A DNA stretch of 64,000 nucleotides from Sediminitomix flava (GTDB taxonomy: Bacteria > Bacteroidota > Bacteroidia > Cytophagales > Flammeovirgaceae), in assembly GCF_003149185.1 (NCBI RefSeq), contig NZ_QGDO01000004.1:1-64000 (forward strand). Reading direction: 5' to 3'. Positions within the stretch are counted from its first letter, which is position 1. Each line of letters opens with the position of its first letter. A model generated the notes under the pieces. The model made no database searches. It saw nothing but the letters and a program-made list of their open reading frames with translations, and had not been told where the DNA came from. Below, in pieces: positions 25,782 through 32,536 of the stretch. The translations under genes were made by a program, and so were the position numbers.

Positions 25782-26336
25782 ATGAAGTCTTTTTTCTTAA
25801 AAAGAATAGGGTATTTCTTATTACTAATACAACTAGCTGGGTGTGGCGAGTTGCTCTTTGAGAGTGATGAACTGATTAGCCATCAAGGTTGTGCTACCGG
25901 AGATGAATTTCCGAGTAGTGAGTTTGAATCAAAAGAATTAAATCTTTTTGACCAAATCAATGCATTGAGAGCATCTGAAGGTTTGGCTACATTTACTTGG
26001 GATGAAGGACTTGTACGTTCGGCAAGGTATCATGCACAAGACATGGCGAAAGATGATTATTTCAATGTGGATACTTATGACCGCGTTGATGGACAATTAG
26101 AATTGCAATGTACCCTCTCCGAAAGAATTGTGCGTTTCAACCAAAACGCAAAGGGTGAAAATATAGCTTTTCTTTTAAGCTCTCCTACAGAAGTCATTCA
26201 AACATGGTTAGACGAGGAAGGCTTTCGCGAAAATCTTTTATCACCAGTTTACCAAGCTGTAGGTATCGGGTATTACTCGGTCACTCATCAGTCTAAAGAG
26301 ATTCAATATTGGGTTATGGATGTTGGTATCCGATAG
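25782..26336 (+). CDS. CAP-domain (SCP/PR-1) lipoprotein with altered active-site residues
   Basis: The 184-residue protein has a lipobox (LIQLAGCG, Cys about residue 21) and a CAP domain in about residues 45-184. The family shape is clear: FDQINALRASEGL, TWDEGLVRSARYHAQDMA, KGENIAF and VIQTWLDEEGFRENLLSP. The usual cavity His in the yF-H segment and in GHR-N are not found; the corresponding stretches read YFNVDT and EGFREN. The GENIA Glu is kept. Function of bacterial CAP proteins is largely unknown. Monocistronic, with a terminator. Confidence 0.85.
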   Translation: MKSFFLKRIGYFLLLIQLAGCGELLFESDELISHQGCATGDEFPSSEFESKELNLFDQINALRASEGLATFTWDEGLVRSARYHAQDMAKDDYFNVDTYDRVDGQLELQCTLSERIVRFNQNAKGENIAFLLSSPTEVIQTWLDEEGFRENLLSPVYQAVGIGYYSVTHQSKEIQYWVMDVGIR

Positions 26337-27052: not shown

Positions 27053-27628
27053 ATGACAGATATGCAAGTAAGCAATGGCTACACCGAAGAGCAGATTCTG
27101 GAAGGCTGTAAAAATAACAGCCGAAAATTTCAGAAAGCACTTTACGATTTGTACTCGGCCCGACTTATGGCCGTAGCCGCTCGTTATGCTCATACAGATG
27201 AAGATGCTCATGATATCTTACAAGAAGCTTTTATTAAAATCTTCAAAAAGATAGATACTTTCAGAGCAGAGTCACATCTATATGCTTGGATGAAACGTAT
27301 CGTTGTCAATACAGCGTTAAACTTTCATAGGAGCAAGCTGTATACACAGCCAATGGTAGACGTGAACGAAATGTATGATCTTGCTGAGAAGGAGTATACC
27401 ATTAGTCATTTCAGTTATAATGAGTTGAAGGATATGCTTCAAAGTTTACCCGATGGTTGTAGAATGGTTTTTAACCTCTATGCCATTGAAGGATATAAGC
27501 ATAAAGAAATTTCTTCTATGTTGGACATTAGTGAAGGCACTTCAAAGTCTCAGTATGCGAGAGCAAAGAAGTTGTTACAGGAGTTGATTGAAAAGGCGAA
27601 TCGTAGTTATGAATACAGCCAAAGATAA
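27053..27628 (+). CDS. ECF-type RNA polymerase sigma factor
   Basis: A 191-residue sigma-70 family protein. Region 2 is at about residues 25-95 (YDLYSARLMAVAARY, DAHDILQEAFIKIFKKI, HLYAWMKRIVVNTALNF) and region 4 at about 120-180 (LPDGCRMVFNLYAIEGYKHKEISSMLDISEGTSKSQ). It lacks regions 1 and 3, as ECF sigmas do. The gene overlaps the next by 20 bases, a translational coupling typical of sigma/anti-sigma pairs, although the downstream product is unusual. Its promoter targets cannot be read from the sequence. Confidence 0.93.
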   Translation: MTDMQVSNGYTEEQILEGCKNNSRKFQKALYDLYSARLMAVAARYAHTDEDAHDILQEAFIKIFKKIDTFRAESHLYAWMKRIVVNTALNFHRSKLYTQPMVDVNEMYDLAEKEYTISHFSYNELKDMLQSLPDGCRMVFNLYAIEGYKHKEISSMLDISEGTSKSQYARAKKLLQELIEKANRSYEYSQR

Positions 27629-29369
27629 TTTCGGAAAAATATGGAAAGAGGCATGTGAAAATGCCAAACTTCCTCCCGATGAGTCTTTGTGGAATCTCGT
27701 ACTTGATCGTTTATCTAATAGTAAATGGCAAAAAGCACTTGAGGAAGGAAAGATTCCTCCAAATCAGGAGCTATGGAAAGAAATCACACATCAACTAGAA
27801 GCCATCAAATGGCAAAAGACAGTTGAAGAAGCTGACCTTAAACCCAAAAAGGATTTATGGGATAGCATCAGTGATGAATTGGATGCCTCTGAATGGAGTG
27901 AAAAACTTGAGGGAGAGAATAAAATCCCTAAAAAGGATTTGTGGACTAGCATCAGTAACGAACTTGACGCATCCGAATGGAGCGAGAAGTTTGAAGATGA
28001 GCAATTACAGCCTAAAGATGGAATGTGGGCAGCTATTTCCGATGACTTGGAAACTTCTGAATGGTCTGAAAAACTTGAAAATGAAGAGTTACAACCAGAT
28101 TCTTCACTTTGGAATAAAATCGAATCAGAATTACCTCAGGAGTCAAAATCAAAGGTAGTTGTATTCCCATGGTGGAAAAGTATGGCTGCCGCTGTAACCT
28201 TGATTGCAGTTGGTACAATAGGCGTGCGCTCTTTAACAGGAGATAAAATAGAACCTGCTATTTCTACACAAGAAGTTGTAAAAGAAAATCATCATCATCA
28301 GATTGTAGAACCTATGTCTGCTCCTATCATTGAGGAGAAAGCATTAGAGTCTGCAATCAAAGAAAATGAATATGTAAAGGTTGCCTCAGCTAAACCTCTA
28401 AACACAGTAAATACGCCAGTAGCTTCTCAGAAAGCTAGACAGGCATTTACTCAAAACAATGATGCTGAACCTCCAATTTTTACAGATTCTAATGATATAC
28501 TCGCTCAAGCTTCTTCAAACCCTCAAGAAAATACACTTGCGGTAAATAAAGTGGAAAAAGCGAACCTTAGAGAAATCGTTCTTTATAAAAGGTATTCGCT
28601 CCAGTCATCTGAAGCAGCACAAGTAAATGCTAATGCCTATTATTCGGCTTTAGATCGACTTGAAAAAGTAAATGAAGAAAACAAAGATGGTAAGTTCTAT
28701 GCTGGTCTAAACCTAAACTCAACCGCTTTTGATTCTAAACTTACTGGTGGTAATTCCTCTGTAGTCATGGCGACTTCAAATATGCCCGAAACATCGGCTT
28801 ACGGAACACCAATGCTGACAGAAGTTAACCAGAGTACGAAGCCAGCAATATCAATGAGGTATGGACTAGAAGCAGGTATGCACTTGTCTAAAAAGTGGGT
28901 TGTAGAGACAGGGCTTATCTATGGTAACCTTGGTACGACAGGTACTTCTGAAGCAGTTTCTACATTTAGAGCTAGTAGCGAGGGTGCTGAACAATTTTCA
29001 GTGACAAATACCACAAGTTACGATTATGTATACAACTCATTCTCTGTTCCATTGAAAGTTGGATATGTCATCGGGAATAAGAAACTGAGAATGATCGTAA
29101 AATCGGGTATCAATACCGAAATCATCTCAGGAAATGAATTAAAGGTTAATAGTTTAACATATCAGAACGGGGCACCCGAGTTAAAACCTTATTATTTCAA
29201 TGGTGTTATCGGTAATGAAATCAACTACCGATTTGATCAGCGATTTAACATTGGTATAGAAGCCAATTATGAATTCGGATTTGATAGAATTACAGAGAGT
29301 AATTTCGACTCATATGGTAATCCAAATGCCTATAACTTTGGGGTAAAACTCAAATACCTTATTCATTAA
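27609..29369 (+). CDS. Sigma-linked protein: Trp-repeat cytoplasmic domain, one TM helix and predicted outer-membrane barrel
   Basis: This 586-residue protein starts inside the ECF sigma gene. Residues 21-176 contain about five and a half copies of a 27-29-residue repeat, each with the frame P..xLW..I...L....W.e.lE; copies start near 21, 49, 77, 106, 133 and 161. A single hydrophobic helix follows at about 187-208 (AAAVTLIAVGTIGV), then a Pro/Ser-rich linker, and from about 355 a beta-rich C-terminus (GKFYAGLNLNSTAF, GLEAGMHLSKKWVVETGL, NYRFDQRFNIGIEANYEFG) resembling outer-membrane beta-barrel domains. I infer an envelope-spanning regulator that could hold the sigma factor through the repeats. 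The start ATG at 27609 was chosen over the TTG at 27588. Confidence 0.75.
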   Translation: MNTAKDNFGKIWKEACENAKLPPDESLWNLVLDRLSNSKWQKALEEGKIPPNQELWKEITHQLEAIKWQKTVEEADLKPKKDLWDSISDELDASEWSEKLEGENKIPKKDLWTSISNELDASEWSEKFEDEQLQPKDGMWAAISDDLETSEWSEKLENEELQPDSSLWNKIESELPQESKSKVVVFPWWKSMAAAVTLIAVGTIGVRSLTGDKIEPAISTQEVVKENHHHQIVEPMSAPIIEEKALESAIKENEYVKVASAKPLNTVNTPVASQKARQAFTQNNDAEPPIFTDSNDILAQASSNPQENTLAVNKVEKANLREIVLYKRYSLQSSEAAQVNANAYYSALDRLEKVNEENKDGKFYAGLNLNSTAFDSKLTGGNSSVVMATSNMPETSAYGTPMLTEVNQSTKPAISMRYGLEAGMHLSKKWVVETGLIYGNLGTTGTSEAVSTFRASSEGAEQFSVTNTTSYDYVYNSFSVPLKVGYVIGNKKLRMIVKSGINTEIISGNELKVNSLTYQNGAPELKPYYFNGVIGNEINYRFDQRFNIGIEANYEFGFDRITESNFDSYGNPNAYNFGVKLKYLIH

Positions 29370-29393
29370 TTAATATCAAATTATATAAAAATG

Positions 29394-29429
29394 AAGTGAA
29401 AATTACAGATGTAGTTTTCACTTTTTTTT
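29394..29429 (+). terminator. Terminator of the sigma/barrel operon
   Basis: AAGTGAAAA (29394-29402) pairs with TTTTCACTT (29415-29423), followed by an eight-T run. Confidence 0.85.
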
Positions 29430-29653: not shown

Positions 29654-32536
29654 ATGAAGACCCATTTTTGCCTAATTGTTATTCTGTGTATTCTTACAGT
29701 ATCACCTGCCTTTGCTCAAAAAAAAGTTGAGAGAAAATTAAAAACAGCAGAACAATTTCTAGATCTCCAAGAGTTTCATAACGTGGAAATTTTGATGGAG
29801 GAAATATTAGAAATGAACCCTGAAAACCCTAAGAGCAACTATCTTATGGGGATAGCTAAGTTATTTGCTGCAGGAAGTAATCCACTTCACTCATTATCAT
29901 ATTTCACCAAAGCTTATGATTCGGGTTTACCTTTCCCACATATAGATTATTACATGGGAAGAGGGCTACATTTAAATAATGAATTTGAAAAAGCAATCAA
30001 GTTCTATAACAAAGAATACTTGATGGCTAAACCCGATGCAGAATTAGATTATGATACAGAGTCTTCACACTTCGATGTTATTGTCTCTAAAGAAAAAATA
30101 AGTCAACTTATTGAGAACTGTCAAAATGGTATTTTACTATCAAAAAGTAAAGGACATGAGATGATCTCAAATATGGCAGCTCTAAATACTCACTCTCCAG
30201 ATATGTCACCTGTTCTTTCAGAAGATGAATCTGTTATACTATTCACTGCTCAATCTAAAAAGCGTACAAAATTTAATGTTGACCTCACAACAAATCTACC
30301 CGATCAAGATATTTACATGAGTAGAAAAGATGAGAATGGTAATTGGAGCACAGCTAGTCCTTTCTCAAAGATAAATACCAACGATCACGATGCGGCAGTA
30401 TCTTTAAGCAATAGAGACCAGACTTTATATTTATATAGAGAAGAAGCTACTCATAAGCTTCATTCGGGAAGTATATATAAAATGGAGGCTGAAAATGGCA
30501 AATGGTCTAAACCAGAAAGATTACCCGAAGGTATTAATACCGACTATTGGGAAACGCATATCACAATGTCCCAAGACGGAAAATCTATGGTTATTGTGAG
30601 TGATAGAGAAGGTGGTGAAGGAAAAAGGGATTTATATTATATCAGAAAACTGCCAAATGGTGAATGGGCTAATCCTCAAAACTTAGGGGCAGAAATTAAT
30701 ACTGAACTTGATGAAGAATCGCCATTCTTAACCGACAACGGTGAAACTCTTTACTTCAGTTCTAAAGGACATAACTCAATCGGTGGATTTGATATTTATA
30801 AGGCTAAGAAAGATCCTGATACAGGTTTATTCACGGCTCCAATAAACATGGGTATTCCTACAAACTCAGCTAGTGATGATGTTTTCTATATTGTCTCTAA
30901 AGATGGTAGCCATGCTTACTTCTCATCAATTAGAGAAGACACAAAAGGTTCTTTCGATATCTATTCTTCTACTCTACCAGAAGACGAAAATCATGTAGCG
31001 ACTATCAGAGGAGTTGTAATGGATAAAGAAACATTACAACCCATGAATGCTGAAATTAGAATTATCGATTTAAAAACACATCAACAGGTTTTCGATATCT
31101 ATTCAAGTGCTGAAACAGGGCATTATTCTGCTACTCTCCTACCCAATAGAGCTTATGCTATAAATGTTCTTCACAAAGACTATTTGATGAAATCATATCA
31201 TCTGAATGCTATGGAATTATTTGAAGACATTGAAATCGTTCATGACTTTTCAATGCAGCCAATAGCTGATCAAAGGTTTGAGCCTTTAAATAATGTATTC
31301 CTTGATGAAAGAACATCTGATGTACTTGAAGTTTCAGAACCAGAACTTAGAAACTTAATCGACTTCCTTGAGCAAAATCCTAATATTGTTGTTCAAATTG
31401 GTACACACTTAGCGCCTAAAAGAAGCGATGATGACAATCTGACCCTAGTCAAAACAAAAGCGAAAACCGCATCGGTAAATGTCAGACTAAAAGAACTAGG
31501 TATCGACCTTGAAAGGTTTCAAGAAAGGCATTTAGGTTTCGGTAAAGATCATATTGCATTAGGTGAGCAACAAAGGATCGAATACTTTGTAAAAGACCTC
31601 ACTAAAAAAGAAGAACCAATAGTCTATCCCAACCTTCCAGAGTCTGAAGATATTTATGCGATCATGCCAGATTGCTTAGAAAAAGGTAAGAAACAGAAAT
31701 TGGAAGAGCGGATTGTTTTTTCTGAGATGGATCATGCGCTAACCAGTTCTGATAAAGTTGCTATTAATAGAGTATTGGCCATGCTTATGGAATGTAGCGA
31801 AATGGAACTTCAAATTGTAGGACATACAAACGTAGACGGAGGAGAAACACTAAAAGATGCTTTAAAATTAAAGAGTGCAAATACAGTCGCTCAGTATTTT
31901 ATTCTACAAGGAATAGCCAAAGAACGCCTTCATGTAATTGCTGATAAAGAAAGTCCAATAGAGCTTAATGGCAAAAACTGGATAGACTTCTTTGCTTTAG
32001 GCGGTGGTTCTTACAGAGAAAATCCGCTTGAAGAGCCTAAACTCATGGTTTCTAATTCTTCTGATTTTATAGCTGAAGATCTTGAGGAAGATATAGCCGC
32101 TAGAGGTGAGTCTACAGGAATAAAAGCATCGGCGATGGGGTCTGCTGAAAAACTTGAAAAAGCCGTTAAAGTATATAGACATGGTGAATTTATTGGAATC
32201 TCTATTTACTTCGACTTTGACTCTGATAAGATCAAAGAATCAGAAAAGAAAGCGATTACAACACTCGTAAAAATACTTGAAAATGATCCTCTGATGAAAA
32301 TGGAAGTAATTGGTCATACCGATAATGTAGGTTCTGATAACTACAATGAGAAGTTGGGTAAAAAGAGAGCTAAATCGGTAGAACAATTCCTTTTGCTAAA
32401 AGCCGTTGATAAAGATAGGATCATCATCAAATCTATGGGAGAAGGTCAGCCAGTAATGGGGAATGAAACTTCTGAAGGAAGACAAAAAAATAGACGTACT
32501 GAATTCAAAGTTGTAAAAGAAACAGATTTACAATAA
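29654..32536 (+). CDS. PorE-like TPR/PD40/OmpA-domain protein with three OmpA-like modules
   Basis: A 960-residue exported protein (signal peptide to VSPAFAQ). Order: TPR-like helices (about 25-130), WD40-like PD40 beta-propeller repeats (about 175-440; SPVLSEDESVILFTAQS, HITMSQDGKSMVIVSD, ESPFLTDNGETLYFSS), a CarboxypepD-regulatory-like domain (about 450-530), then OmpA-like domains. The last one (about 850-960) is canonical, with IGHTDNVGSDNYNEKLGKKR. Two earlier stretches (about 545-660 and 690-790) resemble OmpA domains but lack the key Asp and Arg. TPR-PD40-CRD-OmpA is the layout of P. gingivalis PorE, a T9SS component anchored to peptidoglycan. Such an envelope role is inferred. Monocistronic with a terminator. 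Confidence 0.87.
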   Translation: MKTHFCLIVILCILTVSPAFAQKKVERKLKTAEQFLDLQEFHNVEILMEEILEMNPENPKSNYLMGIAKLFAAGSNPLHSLSYFTKAYDSGLPFPHIDYYMGRGLHLNNEFEKAIKFYNKEYLMAKPDAELDYDTESSHFDVIVSKEKISQLIENCQNGILLSKSKGHEMISNMAALNTHSPDMSPVLSEDESVILFTAQSKKRTKFNVDLTTNLPDQDIYMSRKDENGNWSTASPFSKINTNDHDAAVSLSNRDQTLYLYREEATHKLHSGSIYKMEAENGKWSKPERLPEGINTDYWETHITMSQDGKSMVIVSDREGGEGKRDLYYIRKLPNGEWANPQNLGAEINTELDEESPFLTDNGETLYFSSKGHNSIGGFDIYKAKKDPDTGLFTAPINMGIPTNSASDDVFYIVSKDGSHAYFSSIREDTKGSFDIYSSTLPEDENHVATIRGVVMDKETLQPMNAEIRIIDLKTHQQVFDIYSSAETGHYSATLLPNRAYAINVLHKDYLMKSYHLNAMELFEDIEIVHDFSMQPIADQRFEPLNNVFLDERTSDVLEVSEPELRNLIDFLEQNPNIVVQIGTHLAPKRSDDDNLTLVKTKAKTASVNVRLKELGIDLERFQERHLGFGKDHIALGEQQRIEYFVKDLTKKEEPIVYPNLPESEDIYAIMPDCLEKGKKQKLEERIVFSEMDHALTSSDKVAINRVLAMLMECSEMELQIVGHTNVDGGETLKDALKLKSANTVAQYFILQGIAKERLHVIADKESPIELNGKNWIDFFALGGGSYRENPLEEPKLMVSNSSDFIAEDLEEDIAARGESTGIKASAMGSAEKLEKAVKVYRHGEFIGISIYFDFDSDKIKESEKKAITTLVKILENDPLMKMEVIGHTDNVGSDNYNEKLGKKRAKSVEQFLLLKAVDKDRIIIKSMGEGQPVMGNETSEGRQKNRRTEFKVVKETDLQ

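Follow-up and report, generated by a model that had tools for sequence, protein, structure and literature searches.

A probable Dma-type anti-sigma factor with six tandem copies of a predicted sigma-binding unit, encoded beside an ECF sigma gene of Sediminitomix flava

The window, i.e., the whole stretch of 64,000 nucleotides of Sediminitomix flava DNA analysed here, contains an ECF sigma factor gene overlapped by a gene whose 586-aa product carries six tandem copies of a predicted sigma-binding unit. We believe that the whole is probably best explained as a Dma-type (dual membrane-spanning anti-sigma) factor with a tandemly multiplied anti-sigma domain. That the protein is the Dma-type anti-sigma factor of the adjacent sigma factor is very likely by analogy, and by the same analogy we infer its anti-sigma activity and outer-membrane signalling. 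The trans-envelope layout is already known from the Dma family. The tandem multiplication of the predicted unit appears to be undescribed: nothing relevant on tandem repeats in ECF anti-sigma factors was found in the literature searched, which did not cover most subscription journals.

The gene pair and the end of its transcript are as follows.

27053..27628, + strand: ECF sigma factor gene, 191 aa; Pfam Sigma70_r2 and Sigma70_r4_2 above the cut-off
27609..29369, + strand: Dma-like (dual membrane-spanning anti-sigma-like) gene, 586 aa; ATG start, 20-base overlap with the sigma gene
29393..29424, + strand: terminator-like hairpin with a 14-pair stem and a T run, 3' of the 586-aa gene

The sigma protein also has profile matches to solved ECF sigma factors, and it lies below the cut-off of every listed NCBIfam equivalog. 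The mechanical list of open reading frames starts the second gene at TTG 27588; we rejected this start for ATG 27609, which gives the 20-base overlap proposed in the first-pass annotation. To judge from the hairpin, the pair appears to form the 3' end of a single transcript. Overlaps of 8-29 bases at the related loci nearly always keep one relative frame (8, 11, 14, 17, 20, 23, 26, 29), in steps of whole codons; those of only 1 or 4 bases lie in the other frame.

The neighbours of the pair have no counterpart at 19 related loci, which rules out a conserved operon partner. Upstream of the sigma gene (25782-26336) lies a 184-aa protein of the CAP superfamily (PF00188) with a lipoprotein-like N-terminus; directly downstream, past the hairpin (29654-32536), is a protein of 960 aa that combines PD40 propeller repeats with two OmpA domains. 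Seven loci of the Roseivirga and Cyclobacteriaceae type (L033-L038, L041) have in common a divergent gene of roughly 420 aa upstream of the sigma gene, and some of them also a roughly 446-aa LVIVD-repeat protein downstream of it. Both are absent near the window's pair and could be regulon members.

The architecture of the 586-aa protein was taken from an AlphaFold2 model based on an alignment with 29 relatives. The repeat region is predicted to form pairs of short helices, one pair per unit, with low confidence for units 4 and 5; the rest of the chain is as follows.

28170..28235, + strand: inner-membrane TM helix, residues 188-209 (AlphaFold2 helix; the hydrophobic stretch begins at about residue 182)
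28239..28601, + strand: disordered periplasmic tether, residues 211-331 (AlphaFold2, pLDDT under 50 throughout)
28683..29366, + strand: outer-membrane beta-barrel of 8 main strands, about residues 359-586 (AlphaFold2, fold comparison, sub-threshold PF13505)

The eight main strands span residues 363 to 585, with pLDDT mostly over 90. In the fold comparison (Foldseek, VIA-align) residues 357-586 match OmpA, NspA and OmpW with Z of 16-18, the best being OmpA (Z 18.1). The Pfam family OMP_b-brl (PF13505) scores 23.3 bits against a cut-off of 28.7 and is thus sub-threshold here; a seven-unit homologue, L084, passes the cut-off. Both the single TM helix and the C-terminal barrel of the first-pass annotation are therefore borne out, the former by the model and hydrophobicity, the latter by the strands and the fold matches.

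This layout is that of the Dma family of Bacteroidota, represented by Dma1 and Dma2 (PMC13088901). Like the window protein, Dma proteins consist of an N-terminal sigma-binding region (predicted in the window protein), one TM helix, a long disordered tether and a C-terminal beta-barrel, and their genes lie beside an ECF sigma gene. The cognate sigma factors of the family belong to ECF21. In B. thetaiotaomicron vesicle production rises on deletion of dma2, an effect that depends on the cognate sigma gene das2; for Dma1, direct control of Das1 is reported (PMC13088901). Since the layout is homologous, the window protein should retain its sigma factor at the inner membrane while monitoring the outer one. 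There is good support for the earlier idea of a single chain reaching from the cytoplasm to the outer membrane as the anti-sigma factor of the overlapping ECF gene, although Dma1 and Dma2 place it in a class already described. The difference is in the N-terminal region: a single anti-sigma domain is described for Dma, whereas the window protein has six tandem copies of the predicted unit.

The nature of the unit follows from the relatives. Beside related sigma genes, most of them carry a single short motif at the N-terminus, of the approximate form F/W..xW..AF..AE..P...VW..I...L, followed by a TM helix. A unit profile was made from 52 such single-unit relatives, excluding the window protein; applied to the latter, it gave six domains with per-domain E from 4e-4 to 6e-10.

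27630..27713, + strand: anti-sigma unit 1, residues 8-35 (unit profile 13.6 bits)
27714..27797, + strand: anti-sigma unit 2, residues 36-63 (13.5 bits)
27798..27881, + strand: anti-sigma unit 3, residues 64-91 (8.0 bits)
27882..27965, + strand: anti-sigma unit 4, residues 92-119 (6.3 bits)
27966..28049, + strand: anti-sigma unit 5, residues 120-147 (12.1 bits)
28050..28133, + strand: anti-sigma unit 6, residues 148-175, membrane-proximal (24.9 bits, the highest of the six)

Because a profile of single-unit relatives recovers six copies at a 28-residue spacing, the repeat appears to be the ordinary two-helix N-terminal anti-sigma module of the Bacteroidota Dma-type family, tandemly multiplied, and on these sequence grounds each unit is likely a sigma-binding module. 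The association with ECF sigma genes, first noticed in the window, holds on a wider search: the units lie directly 3' of the ECF sigma gene in nearly all relatives recovered. Sequence searches of Pfam, NCBIfam and the PDB gave no noteworthy match to the repeat region, which together with the recovery of six copies by the single-unit profile argues against a known unrelated domain. The class I zinc motif (ZAS, Hx3Cx2C) is absent from residues 1-182, where the sole cysteine is C16 in unit 1, and the unit profile matches neither CnrY nor another solved anti-sigma factor. The first-pass annotation called repeat-based sigma binding non-standard; this stands in that the unit is not a zinc or RseA-like domain and that a sixfold tandem is unusual, but the unit itself is the ordinary module of its family.

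CnrY offers a precedent, by analogy, for a two-helix clasp of a sigma factor: its class II domain on CnrH is short, two-helix and zinc-free, as is predicted for the unit, with helix 1 on sigma4 and helix 2 on sigma2 (PMC7406223). The comparison is of the works-like kind only; unlike the window protein, CnrY lacks a barrel and is not described as having tandem units, and the two have no sequence match. A class I anti-sigma domain is found nearby in only 6% of Bacteroidetes ECF sigma factors (PMC7406223), so the unit of roughly 30 residues may be a common anti-sigma module of Bacteroidota. The unit profile makes such proteins easier to find, the repeat region here having been missed by Pfam and NCBIfam.

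The second Trp falls at residues 28, 56, 84, 112, 140 and 168, always in steps of 28, so that the spacing noted earlier stands and the earlier count of five and a half repeats becomes six full units. A chance pattern is ruled out by 200 shuffles of the repeat region, in which two profile matches occurred in one shuffle and never more. W5, P16, L/M20, W21, I/V24 and L28 are kept in 6/6 units. The description of the central copies as near-identical was too strong: in the Trp-to-Trp register the best pair is identical at 19/28 positions, adjacent copies within units 3-6 share 50-57% identity in the other register, and identity between units within the protein is 25-57% overall. Between units pS is mostly 0.6-1.0, i.e., near saturation, versus a pN of 0.30-0.57, which is mostly the lower of the two. 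Purifying selection on the protein sequence of the units, as proposed earlier, is thus supported; considering the kept core residues and the near-saturated synonymous sites, the copies are old and maintained by selection on the protein.

The number of units varies among the relatives. A set of 73 scored loci, picked by sigma similarity alone, contains 63 with one unit, eight with two, one with three and one with seven. Searches with a two-unit profile, together with earlier matches, added further proteins of 2 to 7 units, each encoded next to an ECF sigma gene; the resulting set of 146 loci ranges from 1 to 7 units, and its multi-unit share is enriched by these targeted searches and is not a prevalence. 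Seven units are found at L084 and L191, six at L179, five at L009, four at L007 and L132, and three at L055, L164, L168, L169 and L114. On a FastTree tree of the 146 sigma factors, the state of three or more units requires at least 9 changes, 7 of them forced by well-supported branches; that of two or more requires 16 changes, 8 of them forced. The sister of the window's sigma factor, with 97% local support, is the L024 sigma from a genome of the same family, and its partner has one unit. The nearest neighbour of a unit comes from the same protein in 31 of 44 cases against a shuffled mean of 3.8; the Trp pattern used for this test took one false unit in G001 (G001_3), which leaves the result unchanged. 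Taken together, the changes on the sigma tree, the one-unit sister partner and the similarity of units within a protein lead us to favour repeated, lineage-specific duplication of units, to judge from sequence; homogenisation between copies could add to the within-protein similarity.

Multiplication is not confined to proteins with a barrel. Some Bacteroidota ECF anti-sigma proteins with a single TM helix and no barrel (L015, L019, L020) have a window-type N-terminal unit and a sigma neighbour, as does L114, and L120 with apparently two or more units; unlike the window protein, these five measure only about 245-270 aa, which leaves no room for a barrel. Since multiplied units occur in such short proteins (L114, L132 and apparently L120), multiplication is a property of the cytoplasmic module, not of the barrel.

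We propose the following mechanism. The cytoplasmic part would consist of six two-helix copies, all of them homologous to the unit that the relatives have once, and the chain would then cross the inner membrane once and continue through the disordered periplasmic tether to the outer-membrane barrel. At rest the co-transcribed ECF sigma factor would be kept at the inner membrane by the units, to be set free when the outer membrane or the tether undergoes a change. Most relatives have one unit, so one is probably enough, and six should alter capacity, avidity or threshold. With six units in place of one, the capacity or avidity of sigma binding is most likely higher (several sigma factors per chain, or fast rebinding of one), which would give a tighter off state and a sharper threshold. 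That copy number acts via valency or avidity has, in our estimate, about an even chance. The fuller version, a multivalent array in which an outer-membrane-linked receptor stores several sigma factors or rebinds one with high avidity while evolution tunes the threshold by gain and loss of units, is more tentative, and we put it somewhat below even. Only a few residues join the units, so neighbouring ones may not be occupied together. For AlphaFold2 the sigma factor was also fused to the six units by reading through the gene overlap with a +1 step. The fusion has a pTM of 0.56, with the sigma factor folded well and units 4 and 5 under 50; a clear rise in confidence is confined to the surroundings of unit 1, whose junction with the C-terminal helix of the sigma factor exists by construction.

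The most serious alternative is that sigma binding is confined to a single unit, probably unit 6 next to the membrane, the other five being a spacer or drift after slippage duplication. Unit 6 scores 24.9 bits versus 6-14 for the others and is the copy most like the single units of the relatives, which align to it; most relatives work with one unit, and AlphaFold models units 4 and 5 with low confidence. Nevertheless, we consider this unlikely. Both Trp, the Pro, the Ile/Val and the Leu are kept in six units despite near-saturated synonymous sites, and a mere spacer would not keep a common core; also, the top score in other multi-unit proteins often falls on the first unit or on one in the middle.

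It is distinctly less probable that different units bind different sigma factors and so integrate several regulators. About a dozen ECF-like sigma genes of the genome reach the search threshold, and the units do differ from one another; however, the only other unit-bearing locus found in the genome adjoins its own sigma gene, and units within a protein are more alike than units of other proteins, as expected of duplication with the same partner. Least probable is that the repeats have another binding target (e.g., RNA polymerase, a membrane partner or one another) with sigma control elsewhere in the protein: the sequence search finds no solved sigma-unit complex for the unit family, but the unit is the sole cytoplasmic part of single-unit relatives that match the Dma architecture, the anti-sigma role of Dma proteins is genetically supported (PMC13088901), and neither Pfam nor NCBIfam recognises another domain in the window protein.

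If the array reading is true, an envelope stress threshold is tuned by adding or losing 28-residue units. The natural series of one to seven copies is ready-made for a study of how the threshold of an envelope response depends on anti-sigma valency.

Some minor observations were made on the related loci. The second related ECF sigma gene of the same genome (G000 contig C1, about 1585300-1586250; L002, L120) is followed by a 256-aa single-TM protein with apparently two or three units, too short for a barrel. At L006 (G198 contig C1) the homologous anti-sigma gene has an in-frame TAG before the barrel, which may be a sequencing error or a true truncation; a barrel-less product of 334 aa would remain. 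Finally, L191, L179, L193 and L194 form a separate group, whose 4 to 7 units are highly regular (KF.NYEAEP....SW..I) and make up the most uniform arrays of all those seen.
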